Of a DNA stretch of 32,151 nt, positions 15,308-32,151 are shown in pieces. Under the pieces are notes generated by a model. It searched no databases. It worked only from the letters and a program-made list of their open reading frames with translations, and was not told the DNA's origin. The DNA is from Geobacter sp. (GTDB lineage: Bacteria > Desulfobacterota > Desulfuromonadia > Geobacterales > DSM-12255): assembly GCA_016223015.1 (NCBI GenBank), contig JACRPV010000102.1, positions 1 through 32,151 on the forward strand, read 5' to 3'. Numbering within the stretch: the first letter of the stretch is position 1; every line of letters starts with the position of its first letter. The translations under genes and the position numbers were made by a program.

Positions 15308-17089
15308 ATGCCAGTCTATGCTGATCTCATCCAGTCCTTCGTCCTGCTGGCGCTGCTTGTTGTGCTTGTCCGGCCCATGGGCGGCTTCATGAAGAAGGTC
15401 TATCAGGGAGAGCCGACGCTTCTGACTCCCCTGATCGGCCCCTGCGAACGTCTCCTCTATCGCCTCTGCGGGGTCGATCCGGACGAGGAGATGACCTGGC
15501 AGCGGTATGCCCGGTCCATGGTCCTGTTCAACCTGGTACTCGGCGTAACACTCTTTGCCATGCTGCTGTTGCAGCACCTGTTGCCGCTCAATCCGCAGCG
15601 GATGCCCGGATTTCCGTGGCAACTGGCATTCAACACGGCTGTCAGCTTTGTCACCAACACCAACTGGCAGGCATACAGCGGCGAGCAGGCTGCCAGTTAT
15701 TTTACCCAGATGGTCGGTCTCACTGTCCACAACTTTGTCTCTGCAGCCACCGGCATGGCGGTCGCCATTGCCCTGATCCGCGGCTTCGCGCGGCGCAAAA
15801 CCACGGCCATCGGCAACTTCTGGGTGGACATGACCCGCGGCACTCTGTATATCCTGCTCCCTTTTTCACTCATAGCCGCATTGTTCCTGGTTTCACAGGG
15901 GGTGATCCAGAATTTCAGCGCCTACCGGAACGTGCCGCTGGTTCAGCCCGCAAGCATTGAAAAACCGAAGTCGGATGAAAATGGCAACCTGCTCAGGGAT
16001 GCAGCCGGCAGGCCGGTCATGGAAACCGTGACAGTCAAGGATGCCCTGATTCCCATGGGGCCGGTGGCATCACAGGAGGCGATCAAGGAGCTGGGAACCA
16101 ATGGCGGCGGCTTTTTCAACGCCAATTCGGCCCACCCCTTCGAGAATCCGACACCGCTCACCAATTTCGTTGAGATCCTCCTGATCCTGCTGATCCCGGC
16201 CGGACTCACGGTGACCTTCGGCCTGATGGTCGGTAACATCGCCCAGGGGCGGGCGCTCTTCGGGGTCATGCTCCTTCTGCTGGTATTCACGTTCGGAGTC
16301 CTGTTCTGGGCCGAAACTGCCGGCACTTCACTGGCTTCCACCTTGGGCGTGCAGGGTGGAAACATGGAAGGGAAGGAGATCCGTTTCGGGATCTCGGGCA
16401 GCGCCCTGTTCAGCGTTGCCACCACAGCCACATCCTGCGGCGCGGTGAACGCCATGCACGATTCCCTCACCCCGCTTGGCGGCATGATCCCCCTGGGCCT
16501 GATCCTTCTGGGGGAGATCGTCTTCGGCGGCGTTGGTTCCGGGCTCTATACAATGCTTGCCTTTGCCGTGATAGCGGTCTTTGTCTCCGGCCTGATGATC
16601 GGGCGCACCCCGGAGTACCTGGGGAAAAAGATCGAGGTGCGGGAGATGTGGATGTCGATGCTGACGATCCTGACGGCCGGGGTCACGGTGCTGGTCATGT
16701 CGGGCATTGCCATGATCACCCCCTCTGCTGTGGCTTCCATGGCTAATCCCGGAGCTCATGGCCTCTCGGAGGTGCTCTATGCCTTTGCCTCGATGGCAAA
16801 CAACAACGGCAGCGCCTTTGCCGGCCTCAACGCCAGCACCGGTTTCTATACCATCCTCGGCTCCCTGTCCATGCTGCTGGGTCGTTATGTCCCGGCCATT
16901 GCCATCCTGGCCATGGCCGGGTCGCTGGCGGAAAAGAAGTACGTCCCGCCGAGCCTCGGGACCCTGCCGACCGACAAGGTCCCCTTTGCCCTCTGGCTGA
17001 CCCTGGTTATCCTGATCGTCGGGGCGCTGACCTTTTTCCCGGCCCTGGCACTGGGGCCGATCGTCGAGCACCTGACCATGACAATGTAG
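15308..17089 (+). CDS. kdpA: potassium-transporting ATPase subunit A
   Basis: [35 protein letters not shown]...[18 protein letters not shown]...[26 protein letters not shown]. Confidence 0.97.
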
Positions 17090-17177
17090 GGGCGAATCTT
17101 GTATTCGCCCGCTTGTATCCGCCGGCTTGTATCCGTCTGCATTTGTGGGGCGATCACGAGGATCGCCCCTACGGGAG
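17086..17177. repeat. composite palindromic repeat island 1 (kdpA/kdpB gap)
   Basis: Hairpin GGGCGAAT-CTTGT-ATTCGCCC (17090-17110), three 14-nt degenerate tandem units TTGTATYCGYCBGC (17099-17140), hairpin GGGGCGATC-ACGAG-GATCGCCCC (17147-17169). Confidence 0.85.
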
Positions 17178-19254: not shown

Positions 19255-19263
19255 CGATTTTCG

Positions 19264-19358
19264 TAGGGGCGATCCTCGTGATCGCCCTATTCAAGGGGCG
19301 AATACGGGTACTGGGCGAATACGGTACTGGGCGAATACGAGATTCGCCCCTACGGGAG
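19264..19358. repeat. composite palindromic repeat island 2 (kdpB/kdpC gap), inverted relative to island 1
   Basis: Hairpin GGGCGATC-CTCGT-GATCGCCC (19267-19287), tandem GGGCGAATACGGGTACT/GGGCGAATACGGTACT/GGGCGAATACGAGATT (19296-19344), hairpin GGGCGAAT-ACGAG-ATTCGCCC (19329-19349). Confidence 0.85.
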
Positions 19359-19365
19359 GAATACG

Positions 19366-19935
19366 ATGAAAGATCTGAAACCCGCAATCCTGATGCTGAT
19401 CGTATTCACCGTCATCTGCGGAGGAATCTACCCGGCTGTCGTCACTGGAATTGCCCAGGCGGTTTTCCCGCACCAGGCCCGGGGAAGCTTCATCGCCGGC
19501 GCGAATGGCCGCGAAATCGGTTCGGCACTCATCGGCCAACCCTTTTCCGATCCGAAGTATCTCTGGCCCCGGCCGTCGGCTACTCCTGACAGTGCCTACA
19601 ATCCCGCAGGATCGGGCGGTTCCAATGCCGGACCCACCAACCCCGGCTACCTGCAGACCGTTGCCGACCGGGTCAAGTCCCTGCGGTCGGCGGGCATCTC
19701 AGGAACGATCCCCGCCGAGATGGTCCAGGCATCTGCCAGCGGCCTCGACCCCCACATTTCGCCCGCAGCGGCTCTGATGCAGGTTCCGCGCATTGCAAAG
19801 GCGCGCAACCTGAGCGAGGAGGTACTGCAACGCATTGTCGCTGCCCATACCGAAAACCGGCAGTTCGGCATTTTCGGTGAATCGCGGGTGAATGTGCTTG
19901 CAGTCAACGGTGTATTGGATAAGCTGACCCCATGA
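19366..19935 (+). CDS. kdpC: potassium-transporting ATPase subunit C
   Basis: MKDLKPAILMLIVFTVICGGIYPAVVTGIAQAVFP...GSALIGQPFSDPKYLWPRPSAT. Confidence 0.97.
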   Translation: MKDLKPAILMLIVFTVICGGIYPAVVTGIAQAVFPHQARGSFIAGANGREIGSALIGQPFSDPKYLWPRPSATPDSAYNPAGSGGSNAGPTNPGYLQTVADRVKSLRSAGISGTIPAEMVQASASGLDPHISPAAALMQVPRIAKARNLSEEVLQRIVAAHTENRQFGIFGESRVNVLAVNGVLDKLTP

Positions 19936-22607
19936 CCGATCAAGGCGACGACATGCGTCCTTCTCCCGAAATCCTGCTGAAACGGGCCCAGGCCGAAGAA
20001 GCGGAGCAGGGGAGGGGGAAGCTCAAGATCTTCCTCGGCTATGCGGCTGGCGTGGGAAAGACCTATGCCATGCTGGAGGCTGCAGAGCAGCGCAAGCTCG
20101 AAGGCATGGATGTGGTGGTCGGCTATGTGGAGTCCCACGGCCGATTCGAGACCGACTCGCTTCTGGCGCTATCGGCGCTGGAGATCATCCCCAAGGCCCG
20201 GATCAGCTACCAGGGGGTCGTGCTGCCTGAGCTGGACATCGATGCGGTGCTGGCCCGCAAGCCGCAGATCGTGCTGGTTGACGAACTGGCCCACACCAAC
20301 GCACCCGGCTGCCGCCACGAGAAGCGCTGGCAGGACGTGGAGGAGCTGCTGGCTGCCGGCATCGATGTCTACACCACCCTGAATGTCCAGCACTTTGAAA
20401 GCCTCAACGATGTGGTCGCTCAGATCACCGGCATCGTCATGCGGGAAACCGTGCCCGATCAGCTCCTGGACGAGGCTGCAGAGATCCGTCTGGTCGATAT
20501 CTCTCCCGATGACCTTCTGCAGCGCCTGCGCGAAGGGAAGGTCTACATTCCCGAGCAGGCGGCCCGGGCCATGGAGACCTTTTTCCGCCCCGGCAACCTG
20601 CTCGCCCTGCGGGAGCTTTCCATGCGGCGGGCAGCCGCCCGCGTCGACGACCAGATGCGGGCCTACATGGAGAGGCAGTCCATCGCCGGGCCCTGGCCGA
20701 CAGCGGAACGTCTCCTGGCCTGTGTCAGCGGCAGTCCGAACAGCGACACCCTGATCCGCGCCACCCGGCGCCTGGCCGACGAACTGAAGGCAGGCTGGAT
20801 GACCCTGTACGTCGAGACACCCGACGGCGGCCGGCATGCACACGAAAACAGGGAGCGGGTCTGGCGGGACCTCCGGCAGGCAGAGAGCCTGGGTGCAGAG
20901 GTGGCAACGGTGACGGCACCTTCGGTGACCGATGCGGTGGTCGATTTTGCCCGGCGTCACAACATCACCAAGATCGTCATGGGCAAGCCCCATCGCTCAC
21001 GCTGGCAAGAGATCATCAGTCCGCCGCTGGTGCATCGTATCATCCGCCAGAGCGGTTCCATCGACGTGATGGTGGTCAGTTTCGCCTCGCCTGTGTCTGC
21101 TTCGATAAAAATGGCTGTGAAACCGAAACAGCCATTCGATCTGACCGGTTATGCCGGCAGTTTCCTCCTGGTCGTCGCAGTGTCCCTGGTCTGCGAGATG
21201 CTCCGTTCCGTTCTGGCGCCCACCAACATGGTCATGTTCTACCTGCTGGCCGTGGTTCTGGCTGCGGTCCGTCTCGGCAGGCGTCCGGCCGTGGCCACCG
21301 CCTTTTTCGGGGTGCTGGCCTTCGATTTCTTTTTCGTCCCTCCACGTCTCACCTTTGCCGTGGCAGATACCCAGTATCTGTTGACGTTCGTGGGGCTGTT
21401 CGTCGTCGGTGTGGTCATCAGCTCGCTGGTGGCCCGTTCCCGCGAACGGGCCGAGGTGATTCGCACCAGGGAGGTGCAGACCGCCAGCCTCTACTACCTG
21501 AGCCGCGATCTGGCCGCTGCCGGTGACCTGGCTGCAATCTTCGAGGCGCTGGTCAGGAACCTGGAAAGCGCCCTGGATGCGCGGATGGCTCTCTTTCTCC
21601 CGGAAGGGGAGCGGTTGGAGATAGCTGCCGTCAGCACGGACCTCGCGGTTGACCTGAAGGAACAGGCAGTTGCGGACTGGGCGTTCCGCAATCGGCAACC
21701 GGCCGGGCGCGGCACGGAAACGCTTGTCTCGGCCGGGATGATCTATCTGCCGCTCTCGACCCAGGCTGCTGTCCTGGGAGTGCTCGGGGTGCGGATGGAG
21801 AACGAAACCGACTACCGTTCAACGGAAAACCGCCGTCTGCTGGACGCCTTTGCCATGCAGACGGCCATGGCCATCGAACGGGTGCAGCTGGCCAAGCAGG
21901 CTGAGCAGACCCAGATCCTCCAGGCCAGGGAAAACCTGGAGCGGGCACTGCTCAATTCCGTCTCCCACGACCTGCGGACACCGCTGGTTACCATCACCGG
22001 AGTGCTGGCGAGCCTGCGCAAGGAAGACTGCACACTTGGAGAAGCGGCCCGGAGCGACCTTCTGGATACTGCCTGGGGTGAGGCGGACCGCCTCAACCGG
22101 TTTGTCGGCAATCTGCTGGACATGACCCGGCTCGAATCGGGAAATGTCGTCCTGAAACATGAGCTGTGCGATATTCAGGACCTGGTCGGCTGCACCCTTG
22201 CCGCGCTGGACCAGAGTGTCAGCAGTCGGGCCATCGCGGTAAAACTCCCTCCCGATCTCCCGCTGGTAAGCATGGATATGGTGCTGATGACTCATGTGCT
22301 GGTGAACATCCTGGATAATGCCGTGAAATATGCGCCGCCCGCAAGCCCGATCGAGATCGCGGCACGCAGCGACCGGGAATGGCTGACCATAGAGGTGACG
22401 GATCTGGGACCGGGGGTGCCGGAGCATGACCTGAAGAGGATATTCGACAAGTTCTACCGGATTCCGGTCCCCGAAGGGGCAGGGGGGACCGGTCTCGGGC
22501 TCTCCATCTGCAAGGGGATCGTCGAGGCGCATGGGGGAAGGATTCGGGCGGAAAATCTCTCCGGCGGCGGCTTCAGGATCATTGTCCGGCTGCCGCTCGC
22601 CGCCTAG
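19932..22607 (+). CDS. kdpD: sensor histidine kinase KdpD
   Basis: N-terminal GKLKIFLGYAAGVGKTYAMLEAA, USP domain, DUF4118 TM region, HisKA SVSHDLRTPL and HATPase. Confidence 0.97.
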   Translation: MTDQGDDMRPSPEILLKRAQAEEAEQGRGKLKIFLGYAAGVGKTYAMLEAAEQRKLEGMDVVVGYVESHGRFETDSLLALSALEIIPKARISYQGVVLPELDIDAVLARKPQIVLVDELAHTNAPGCRHEKRWQDVEELLAAGIDVYTTLNVQHFESLNDVVAQITGIVMRETVPDQLLDEAAEIRLVDISPDDLLQRLREGKVYIPEQAARAMETFFRPGNLLALRELSMRRAAARVDDQMRAYMERQSIAGPWPTAERLLACVSGSPNSDTLIRATRRLADELKAGWMTLYVETPDGGRHAHENRERVWRDLRQAESLGAEVATVTAPSVTDAVVDFARRHNITKIVMGKPHRSRWQEIISPPLVHRIIRQSGSIDVMVVSFASPVSASIKMAVKPKQPFDLTGYAGSFLLVVAVSLVCEMLRSVLAPTNMVMFYLLAVVLAAVRLGRRPAVATAFFGVLAFDFFFVPPRLTFAVADTQYLLTFVGLFVVGVVISSLVARSRERAEVIRTREVQTASLYYLSRDLAAAGDLAAIFEALVRNLESALDARMALFLPEGERLEIAAVSTDLAVDLKEQAVADWAFRNRQPAGRGTETLVSAGMIYLPLSTQAAVLGVLGVRMENETDYRSTENRRLLDAFAMQTAMAIERVQLAKQAEQTQILQARENLERALLNSVSHDLRTPLVTITGVLASLRKEDCTLGEAARSDLLDTAWGEADRLNRFVGNLLDMTRLESGNVVLKHELCDIQDLVGCTLAALDQSVSSRAIAVKLPPDLPLVSMDMVLMTHVLVNILDNAVKYAPPASPIEIAARSDREWLTIEVTDLGPGVPEHDLKRIFDKFYRIPVPEGAGGTGLGLSICKGIVEAHGGRIRAENLSGGGFRIIVRLPLAA

Positions 22608-22752
22608 CCAGGTTGTTGAAAAACAGCCATCTCGCCGCCGTCCTCGAAAGCCGCCTTGTGCGGCGTGGCGCTGCCACGCCTCCGCGGGGCTTTCTGCGGG
22701 TGCGACGATCTGACCGTTTTTGAACAACCTGAGGTTTTCAACAACCTGCTGG
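22608..22752. repeat. long-hairpin/MITE-like element in the kdpD/kdpE gap
   Basis: Ends AGGTTGTTGAAAAAC ... GTTTTTGAACAACCT (one mismatch), internal GAAAGCC...GGCTTTC, core palindrome GGCGTGGC-GCT-GCCACGCC; extra end-like copy TTTTCAACAACCTGCTGG. Confidence 0.8.
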
Positions 22753-22768: not shown

Positions 22769-23476
22769 TTGGCTCTCGAACCTACCCGGAGCGCTGCTCT
22801 TCCTCGCATTCTGATCGTGGACGACGAGGTGGCGATCCAGCGCTTTCTCCATGCCATCCTGGACAAAGGGGAATTTTCCCTGCATCGGGCCGAAACCGGC
22901 CATGCCGCGTTGGCCGCGGCAGCAGCGGTTCGGCCCGACCTGATCCTGCTCGATCTGGGCCTGCCCGATCTCGACGGGGTCGAGGTGATCCGGCGGATCC
23001 GGGAATGGTCTCCGGTCCCGATCATCGTCCTGTCGGTACGGGAGCGGGAGGACGACAAGGTGAATGCCCTGGATGCCGGCGCCGATGATTACCTGACCAA
23101 GCCGTTCGGCATCGGCGAACTGTTGGCCCGGATGCGCGCAGCCCTGCGCCGGGCCATCCGGACTCTGCCCGAGCCGGTCTTCCGGGTCGATGAGCTGGAG
23201 GTGGATCTGCCGCGGCGCCGTGTCCTTGTCCGGGGGGAGGAGGTCCAGCTTACGCCCACCGAGTACGAGCTGCTGAAGTTCATGGTGACCCATGCGGGAA
23301 AGGTCCTGACCCATCGGCAGATGCTCCGGCAGATCTGGGGGCCGGCCTATGTGGAGCAGCCACATCTGCTCAGGGTCAATGTCAGCAACCTGCGGCGAAA
23401 GATCGAGCCGGACGCCTCCCGGCCACGCTACATCCTGACCGAACTGGGGGTGGGGTACCGGTTGAAGGAAGGCTAG
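22769..23476 (+). CDS. kdpE: response regulator KdpE (TTG start)
   Basis: REC domain ILIVDDEVAIQRFLHAIL...LDLGLPDLDG plus OmpR-type winged helix; RBS GGAG 7 nt before the TTG. Confidence 0.95.
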   Translation: MALEPTRSAALPRILIVDDEVAIQRFLHAILDKGEFSLHRAETGHAALAAAAAVRPDLILLDLGLPDLDGVEVIRRIREWSPVPIIVLSVREREDDKVNALDAGADDYLTKPFGIGELLARMRAALRRAIRTLPEPVFRVDELEVDLPRRRVLVRGEEVQLTPTEYELLKFMVTHAGKVLTHRQMLRQIWGPAYVEQPHLLRVNVSNLRRKIEPDASRPRYILTELGVGYRLKEG

Positions 23477-30302: not shown

Positions 30303-31160
30303 ACGAATACCTGGACCTCTTCCTGAGCTATCTCGTGGTGGAGAAGGGGTTGTCCCGCAATACCCTGGAGGCATACAGCCGGGACGTGGCAGGCTACCTG
30401 GGGTATCTGGAGCGGCAGGGGGTGGCAACGGCGACAGATGGCCGGCCGCTGGATATCAGCGGCTACCTGGCGGAACTGAAGGGTGCCGGACTCGCCCCGC
30501 GCAGCCGGGCCAGGGTGCTGTCGGCCATCCGCATGTTTCACAAGTTCCTGGTCATCGAAGGGTATGCGACGGTCAACCCCGCGTCGCTCATCGAGGCGCC
30601 CAAGACCCTGCACCGGTTGCCGTCCGTGCTTTCGTCCCGCGAGGTGGAGCGGCTCCTGGCGGCTCCTGGCGGCGACGATCCGGGCGCCATCCGCGACAGA
30701 GCCATGCTGGATTTCCGAGCTGGTGTCGCTCAGGGTCCAGGACATCAACCTGAACGCCGGTTATCTCCTGACCATGGGGAAGGGCTCGAAGGAGCGGGTG
30801 GTGCCGATCGGCGATTCGGCCCGGGACCAGTTGAGCGACTATCTCGGCCGGGCCCGGCCCGAACTGGGGAAGTCGGGCGATTCGGCCCATCTCTTTCTCA
30901 GCAGGCTCGGTAACGGCATGAGCCGCCAGGCATTCTGGAACATCATCAAGAAACGCGCGCTGGAGGGGGGGATCGTGAAAAACATCTCCCCCCACACCCT
31001 GCGCCATTCCTTTGCGACGCACCTGCTGGAAAACGGGGCGGATCTGCGGAGTGTCCAGCTGATGCTCGGCCATGCCGACCTCTCCACGACCCAGATCTAT
31101 ACCCACATTACCCGTGAGAGGCTGAAACGGCTTCATGCGGAGCATCATCCCCGCGGCTGA
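30299..31160 (+). pseudogene. tyrosine recombinase XerC/XerD, frameshifted with a small deletion near 30709-30711
   Basis: N-terminal SAM-like domain in frame 30299-; catalytic domain ISELVSLRVQDINL...HTLRHSFATHLLENGADLRSVQLMLGHADLSTTQIYTHI in the shifted frame; ELLYATGLR segment missing. Confidence 0.88.
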
Positions 31161-31240
31161 CAACGATCCGGCATTCCTGCCGCGAGAGACCGGCATGGAG
31201 CTTTTTTCTGTAACTGAGCGAACATTTTGCGGTATAGTTA

Positions 31241-31382
31241 GTTTCCAGCCGGAAACGGTTCTTTTTCGCCCTGGCGGTGTCAATCTGCGGGATTCCTTGT
31301 GCGGCGTAGCGCTGCTACGCCTCCGCGCAATCCCTTGATTTCCTTGCCAGGACGAAAAATCCCTCGTTTCCGATCTGGAAAC
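31241..31382. repeat. second long-hairpin element sharing the 33-nt core with the kdpD/kdpE element
   Basis: Outer arms GTTTCCAGCCGGAAACG / CGTTTCCGATCTGGAAAC, inner TTTTTCGCCCTGGC / GCCAGGACGAAAAA, GGGATT/AATCCC, core GGCGTAGC-GCT-GCTACGCC. Confidence 0.8.
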
Positions 31383-31461
31383 CGGCAGTGTTTCATCCGG
31401 TGTTTCCGGATGGGCACTAGTTAACGGATCATATTCCGGATGAAAGGATCTCTTCTTCGTT

Positions 31462-32151
31462 ATGAAATACTTGGTTCTCCTTGGCGATGGCATGTCCGAT
31501 GAAAAACTTCCCCAGCTCGGCGGGAAAACCCCTCTGCAGGCGGCCCATACGCCAAACATGGACTTCATGGCGCGCCGTGGCCGGCTGGGACTGGCCAGAA
31601 CCGTGCCCAAGGGTTTGCCGCCGGGGAGCGATGTCGCCAACCTGTCGGTGTTCGGGTATGACCCACGGACCTGCTATACCGGCCGTTCCCCCCTGGAGGC
31701 AGCCAGCATGGGCGTCTCCCTCGGTGCCGACGACGTGGCGTTCCGCCTCAACCTGGTTACCCTCAAGATCTCCGGCAGAAGGATCTTCATGCAGGACTAT
31801 TCGGCAGGCCATATCACCACCGACGAAAGCCGGGTGCTGATCCAGGACCTGCAGAAGGAGTTCGGCACCGACGGTGTCGAATTCCACCCCGGCGTCGGCT
31901 ACCGCCACCTGATGGTCTGGCGGGGGGGGAAGGATGCGCTCAAGGCGACCCCGCCCCACGATATCACCGGCAAGGACATATGCGAGTTTCTGCCGCAGGG
32001 GGATGGTGCGGACCGCCTCATTTACCTGATGAACGCATCGCAGATGCTCTTTTTGAACCACCCGCTGAACAAACAGCGCGAGGCGGACGGCAAGAATCCC
32101 GCAAGTTCCATCTGGCTCTGGGGACATGGCAAGTCGCCGCGCATCGAGACC
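31462..32151 (+). CDS. cofactor-independent phosphoglycerate mutase (ApgM-type), 5' part, runs off window
   Basis: MKYLVLLGDGMSDEKLPQLGGKTPLQAAHTPNMDFMARRGRLGLARTVPKGLPPGSDVANLSVFGYDPRTCYTGRSPLEAASMGV; open to the window end, so absent from the ORF list. Confidence 0.92.
   Translation, partial: MKYLVLLGDGMSDEKLPQLGGKTPLQAAHTPNMDFMARRGRLGLARTVPKGLPPGSDVANLSVFGYDPRTCYTGRSPLEAASMGVSLGADDVAFRLNLVTLKISGRRIFMQDYSAGHITTDESRVLIQDLQKEFGTDGVEFHPGVGYRHLMVWRGGKDALKATPPHDITGKDICEFLPQGDGADRLIYLMNASQMLFLNHPLNKQREADGKNPASSIWLWGHGKSPRIET

Follow-up and report, generated by a model that had tools for sequence, protein, structure and literature searches.

Hairpin elements behind stop codons in Geobacter-like genomes: a candidate superfamily of non-autonomous mobile DNA

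The window, by which we mean the whole 32,151-nt stretch of Geobacter sp. DNA analysed here, contains one 33-nt core sequence twice on its plus strand, at 22654–22686 and 31295–31327, exactly where the first-pass annotation had placed it. The two copies differ at two positions that together make up a single compensatory pair, A-T in one and G-C in the other. The self-pairing arms that had been reported around them, GGGATT/AATCCC, GAAAGCC/GGCTTTC and GTTTCCAG/CTGGAAAC, are all present. A chance pair is ruled out, as 0 matches to the core pair are expected in dinucleotide-preserving shuffles. The locus raises the question of what the core is, and how one short sequence came to stand at the tip of two hairpins with dissimilar arms. 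In the following, G000 denotes the draft genome to which the window belongs, 81% complete and with 2.88 Mb in 295 contigs; the other G numbers denote the genomes compared with it, and L numbers denote element loci.

The copy at 31295 belongs to element B, a unit of ~187 bp on the minus strand (31238–31424) with the outer ends (T)TAGTTTCC...GGCACTAGTTA. It is located between the gene for a Xer-type tyrosine recombinase (30483–31160, plus strand; Pfam Phage_integrase) and that for a 2,3-bisphosphoglycerate-independent phosphoglycerate mutase (31462–32151, plus strand; Pfam PhosphMutase), which runs off the window. In BLAST matches the repeat unit corresponds to window positions ~31241–31421. The predicted fold has −96.9 kcal/mol on the minus strand and −90.8 kcal/mol on the plus strand. 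Within the unit, a conserved hairpin of 131 model positions (31250–31381, minus strand) was detected by the covariance model R1 with 115.6 bits (E 3.2e-26), the plus strand reaching no more than 26.6 bits. R1 was built from 36 copies of the classes B and C described below, including the copy at 31295 and excluding that at 22654.

The stems of element B form a ladder. The outermost arm, GTTTCCAG (31241–31248), is paired in the fold with CTGGAAAC (31375–31382). Further inwards, sequence and fold together define P1 (CGGAAACG, 31250–31257, with CGTTTCCG, 31365–31372), P2 (TTTTTCG, 31262–31268, with CGAAAAA, 31353–31359), P3 (CCTGGC, 31270–31275, with GCCAGG, 31346–31351), P4 (AATC, 31282–31285, with GATT, 31337–31340) and P5 (GGGATT, 31289–31294, with AATCCC, 31329–31334). 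The core (31295–31327) closes the ladder and consists of CCTTGTGC, the apex GGCGTAGC-GCT-GCTACGCC and TCCGCG.

The copy at 22654 is part of element A (22605–22751, minus strand), which lies between kdpD and kdpE. It starts at the TAG stop codon of kdpD (22605–22607) and ends at CAACAACCTGCT. The upstream gene encodes a KdpD-type sensor kinase (19932–22607, plus strand; Pfam KdpD and HATPase_c), the stop codon of which abuts the element, and the downstream gene a KdpE-type response regulator (22769–23476, plus strand; Pfam Response_reg and Trans_reg_C). This copy, which is not in R1, matches the model at 22608–22741 on the minus strand with 81.4 bits. Its outer arm, AGGTTGTTGAAAAACAG (22610–22626), pairs with GTTTTTGAACAACCT (22716–22730) in both sequence and fold; the partner is present in a second copy at 22732–22751. 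In its core (22654–22686), the variable apex pair is G-C. Elsewhere in the window, direct and inverted GTAGGGGCGATCCTCGTGATCGCCC-like palindromes are present at 17086–17110, 17148–17177, 19262–19287 and 19329–19358, and look like GTAG-tagged REP pairs.

The core is found at 35 places in G000 when up to three mismatches are allowed, and a reversed control pattern at none. Each element is an imperfect hairpin of ~130–190 bp with the core as its apex. On the plus strand, the left arm reads from outside in as the variable P1, P2 (CTTTTCCGC), P3, P4, P5, CTTGTGCG and the apex GGCGTAGC-GCT-GCTACGCC, and the right arm mirrors it as ..CTCCGCG, P5′, P4′, P3′, GCGAAAAAT and P1′. Three classes can be told apart: class A, with the outer arm GTTGTTGAAAAACAG, includes the copy at 22654; class B, with TAGTTTCC...CGGAAACGG, includes that at 31295; and class C consists mostly of single copies, each with its own P1. 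In nearly all copies the core holds GGCGTAGCGCTGCTACGCC or its compensated form. One suggestion of the first-pass annotation was a core module that had inserted into unrelated palindromes. Given that the arms fall into the related classes A, B and C with a common ladder of stems, we reject this suggestion: the arms belong to the element, and one covariance model spans all 131 positions in distant genomes. On balance, we regard the two window sites as members of classes B and A of a single superfamily of non-coding, non-autonomous mobile elements, ~130–190 bp in length.

Several variations on this architecture were observed. The hairpins at L078, L081, L091, L114, L128, L134 and L160 harbor a nested, structured mini-element of ~75–80 nt (GACTCGGCC..CCCCTTCGGGGCGCCTTCGCGGTCCAATT-N8-AATTG), the last hairpin of which covaries between copies. 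Its entry point within the core is repeatedly identical (CTTGT^GCGG), it also occurs within P2, and its insertion apparently involves a one-base duplication of T. The apex can be swapped as a block, with GTAGCGCTGCTAC in one genome and GTACTTCCAGTAC or a similar sequence at the orthologous copy, while the remaining element is nearly unchanged (L246 versus L247 at argF-argG, and L058 versus L089); such swaps suggest that the apices of a genome change in concert. An extended apex, GCGCTG-TTTATGCCC(T/A)GTGGGTAC, in L271 and L283 of G001 and L249 of G022 represents another version.

The earlier proposal that structure is conserved over sequence is borne out by covariation, in a hairpin that is selected or actively maintained. 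When 36 diverse copies of classes B and C are aligned, both sides have changed in 35 of the 47 base pairs. The covariation score is 0.442, as compared to 0.155 in shuffles, none of 500 shuffles reaches 0.442, and a control with slid partners gives at most 0.114. In the same alignment 87% of the cells are paired, a figure biased upward by the derivation of the structure from the same sequences, and the counts of two-sided change are the stronger measure. The letters of P1 vary among copies with the pairing kept, as at the orthologous argF-argG sites, where the stems read GTGAGCG/CGCTCAC, GGAGCG/CGCTCC, GGAGCG/CGTTCC and GAAACG/CGTTTC. Likewise, P3 reads CAATATC/GATCTTG or CAGCTC/GATCTG in other copies, and P4 reads GATC/GATC, GGCC/GGCC, AGGC/GCCT or GTC/GAC. 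Among 172 copies, one of the two most variable apex pairs is A-T or G-C in 151 + 16 and the other G-C or A-T in 144 + 16; intermediates read on the plus strand are A.C in 2 and 10 copies versus G.T in 1 and 2. Apparent non-compensatory changes in the stems, which had been named as evidence against a conserved hairpin, thus do exist, but most of them are wobble pairs tolerated on the minus strand, where A.C becomes G.T.

This bias identifies the strand that folds. We aligned each hairpin to itself blindly, scored it ignoring wobble and counted mismatches on the plus strand. The ratio of G.T to A.C was 2:26 in P1, as compared to 29:33 when the arms were permuted among copies, 0:20 in P2, 0:15 at the variable positions of P3 (permuted arms, 18:40) and 4:13 in P5 (permuted arms, 30:21). 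P4, in which the pairing register is ambiguous, leans the opposite way (17:3). When both strands are folded with RNA parameters, the one antisense to the upstream gene is the more stable in 92 of 97 B/C copies and in 29 of 31 class A copies, with an average advantage of ~10 kcal/mol; DNA parameters give a similar picture. From the strand-specific wobble together with the stability, it follows that the structured strand is a single one, opposite to the upstream gene. The asymmetry is compatible with an RNA or a single-stranded DNA form alike, and selection against a stable hairpin in the mRNA could be a source of the same asymmetry.

The elements are anchored at the 3′ ends of genes. With a simple ORF caller applied to 172 copies, 103 of the 115 intergenic class B/C cases had an upstream gene on the same strand, with a narrow distance peak. 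Of the 92 distinct B/C copies, 84 have the end of a stop codon no more than 8 nt from where P1 starts, mostly no more than 3 nt, and in class A the stop distances are mostly −2 or −3. Most class C copies begin no more than 3 nt from the upstream stop codon, with a single orientation and within core operons (nuoA-nuoB, argF-argG and dapB-dapL); at the last of these sites, L042, the upstream protein is dapB (TIGR00036) and the downstream one dapL (TIGR03542). TAG makes up 41 of the 84 anchored B/C stops; its share among 959 stops at a distance from elements is 27% (p 8e-5). Furthermore, YTAG is present in 13 of 41 class A cases (p 1.6e-6) and 18 of 83 class C cases (p 8e-6) versus 6.7%; the base before TAG varies, with CTAG and TTAG over-represented. 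The TAG pre-exists at the empty sites L026, L021 and L002, and is present in both genomes at L010, L008 and L019. TAA and TGA stops are also abutted by elements, and element B of the window abuts no stop, that of the Xer-type gene lying 77 nt before it. At L024 in G000, the element has entered before the nuoA stop, such that the NuoA C-terminus extends into the hairpin and takes a new stop from inside the element. This overall pattern would be explained by a target preference combined with purifying selection, and would be explained equally by a functional demand.

Comparison with a near relative revealed that the elements come and go. In G001, which belongs to the same genus as G000 and has flanks 92–97% identical, neither window element is present at the orthologous place, implying that classes A and B have been mobile recently. 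We aligned 16 further sites between the two genomes, all occupied by class A or B in G000, and eight of them are empty in G001 (L001, L002, L011, L012, L016, L020, L021 and L026). At L010, class A in one genome and class B in the other sit at an identical position, to the nucleotide, after a TAG stop, and L008 holds class A versus a C type in the same manner. The element is in opposite orientation at L014, L018 and L023, and L019 appears to have suffered a deletion in G001, only the two P1 arms being left. The junctions are uneven, with possible duplications at L026 (6 bp) and L002 (7 bp) and none at L016, L020 and L021.

Class C copies are older than those of classes A and B, yet they are patchy too. 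The argF-argG gap is filled in G000, G001, G008, G014, G017 and G022, and is a plain short gap without the element in G002, G003, G007, G009, G010 and G015. Similarly, the nuoA-nuoB gap is filled in G000, G001, G008 and G015, is divergent in G011 and G012, and lacks the element in G007, G009, G010, G014, G017 and G020. In G002, G004, G006 and G022 (L217, L211, L222 and L212), the latter gap holds unrelated inverted GAGGTTCGAGG-type repeats, which marks it as a hot spot for palindromic elements.

Of 58 relatives from the same order, 29 contain the core pattern, with up to 69 copies per genome. Among these relatives it occurs in none of the searched genomes of genus g14, whose sister genera have dozens of copies, and the g14 genomes offer a natural comparison for the loss of a mobilizing factor. 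Exact core matches in named genomes come mostly from Geobacter, Geotalea, Oryzomonas, Pelotalea and related MAGs, with one Nitrospirae MAG. The MAG GWC2_56_14, which is labelled Nitrospirae, contains several copies (L074, L082, L105 and L114), of class A where the flanks were examined, owing to either horizontal transfer or mis-binning. Across the phylum, R1 matches 56 of 247 genomes, 41 of the 198 good ones (E <= 1e-6), and with 13 candidates scored per genome the copy numbers are lower bounds. Distant members mostly belong to class B and have other apex loops (GTAC-N-GTAC), and the apex of the window copies is therefore a local version. At the sensitivities used, viral contigs, plasmids and phages contained no copies.

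Taking these observations together, we lean towards a non-autonomous superfamily of mobile hairpins, moved as a folded single strand by a trans-acting enzyme and entering next to a TAG-like target. The mobile form is probably folded single-stranded DNA. The strand opposite to the upstream gene would fold when single-stranded, and the enzyme would cut and join the element end next to the target, with insertion in one orientation and without consistent duplication. Since harmless TAGs in coding-dense genomes are stop codons, the copies that survive would be those directly after stops. Old copies, as in class C, may then stay in operons as harmless or mildly useful 3′-end hairpins that drift with their fold kept, and surviving copies may lose their middle by deletion or be replaced. 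A bolder and distinctly more tentative version holds that the hairpins transpose as single-stranded DNA throughout the phylum and insert specifically behind TAG stops by means of an enzyme of an unrecognized kind; if so, the genetic code itself would supply safe landing sites inside operons. As for the enzyme, Y1 transposases were found neither in G000 nor in the three near-complete carriers G002, G003 and G017, and a scan of 36 Y1 loci elsewhere for a flanking element gave one weak match and otherwise none. The element fills dozens of intergenic gaps per Geobacter-like genome, including gaps within core respiratory and amino-acid operons, and a mobile hairpin with a preference for landing at stop codons accounts for its location, its differing arms and its coming and going between sister species. 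It also makes testable what the moving enzyme is, and whether the hairpins behind stops are kept as harmless or as active.

The position directly behind stops, mostly between co-directional genes, could instead reflect a cis-acting mRNA element, in which the hairpin stabilizes the upstream message, tunes the next gene or prevents Rho-dependent polarity, while selection keeps the fold and rare recombination spreads the copies. Its presence in the core operons nuo, arg and dap fits such a role, as does the dapB-dapL copy, which is conserved in G. metallireducens and G. sulfurreducens too (PMC2700814). However, the folding asymmetry favors the antisense strand, orthologous operons in sister genomes of the same genus do without the element, unrelated genes carry it, and one site can hold different classes depending on the genome; we consider this explanation unlikely. 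The better fold of the opposite strand, with its G.U-type and tandem G.A-type mismatches, would also suit a family of small RNAs transcribed from that strand, in line with the annotation as "predicted short RNA" in the 2009 study (PMC2700814). This seems improbable, as the family has dozens of copies with site-specific outer stems and shows insertion polymorphism; by eye, the class C flanks contain no conserved promoter- or terminator-like sequence beyond P1, and the family is without an Rfam match. A search against Rfam 15 at the gathering score returned just a tRNA for the window, and one with E up to 5 returned nothing relevant for five element loci. Separately, intrinsic terminators were considered and dismissed, because the class C copies listed show, by eye, no run of T after P1, whichever strand is read.

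Two further explanations were considered. The inverted terminal arms of class A (GGTTGTTGAAAAA) and class B (CTAGTTTCC..GGCACTAG), the possible 6–7-bp target duplications at L026 and L002 and the recent multiplication would all be expected of a conventional MITE, that is, a deletion derivative of an IS with a DDE transposase, the outer arms being its terminal inverted repeats. Against this, the duplication is inconsistent at the junctions aligned, the orientation relative to the upstream gene is fixed and anchored at stops, and the covariation extends over the whole length, beyond the terminal repeats. Furthermore, the G001 matches listed include no IS-sized relative with class A ends, no inverted pair of IS size being found among the 100 listed of 142 matches. 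A MITE origin is less probable than a cis-acting mRNA element, though ahead of a small RNA. Least probable of all are integron-like attC sites or other substrates of tyrosine recombinases, bottom-strand folded behind stops. An attC site is likewise a bottom-strand hairpin adjoining a stop codon with structure kept over sequence; by eye, however, the ends lack the RYYYAAC...GTTRRRY pair, P1 reading for example GGAAACG/CGTTTCC or GTGAGCG/CGCTCAC, and the copies are single and scattered beside chromosomal operon genes rather than in cassette arrays.

The mobile hairpins that we favor share features with several known systems. Bacterial MITEs are non-autonomous, have inverted arms and show insertion polymorphism between near relatives. 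The present elements resemble them in their terminal inverted arms (classes A and B), their insertion polymorphism and their lack of autonomy, and differ in having no constant target duplication at the junctions aligned, a structure conserved over the whole length and no parent IS with class A ends among the G001 matches listed. With integron attC sites, they have in common the folding of the bottom strand and a site adjoining the stop codon, but not the end motifs.

REP sequences are also many-copy palindromes near the 3′ ends of genes; their GTAG end often doubles as the TAG stop of the neighboring gene (PMC3733652), and TnpA-REP acts strand-specifically on their single-stranded form, which contains mismatches (PMC8266576). 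However, REPs measure 20–40 bp, whereas the present hairpin spans 131 model positions (147–187 bp for the elements in the window) and has five or six stems. It has no conserved GTAG or CGTC foot, YTAG being enriched instead, and no linked Y1 gene, some carriers being devoid of any Y1 gene. The strand-specific hairpins, the orientation fixed by a short target and several junctions without duplication recall the IS200/IS605 mechanism (PMC8266576), but the present elements contain no transposase gene, and no autonomous partner with class A ends was found among the G001 matches listed.

The closest precedent comes from Geobacter itself. Aklujkar et al. (2009) described 24 "predicted short RNA elements" in Geobacter metallireducens (Gmet_R) with the central palindrome GRCGTAGCGCTGCTACGCC, and reported relatives in G. 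sulfurreducens, G. uraniireducens and Desulfotalea; one of them, Gmet_R1005 (GSU0160.1), lies between dapB and dapL (PMC2700814). In the open-access literature, GTAGCGCTGCTAC as a sequence word led to that paper alone, other such words led to unrelated work, and we found no paper on the structure, strand, mobility or anchoring of the family. Judged from the main text of the 2009 study, the Gmet_R family is the same family as the elements described here: the apex palindrome is identical, the location is intergenic and the dapB-dapL copy is our site L042. The passages of that text on the family present BLAST-listed, presumed RNAs, without a full-length covarying structure, strand, anchoring, empty sites or phylum-wide relatives. 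What appears to be new here is the mobility of the family, the strand that folds, the covariation, the anchoring at stop codons and the spread across the phylum.
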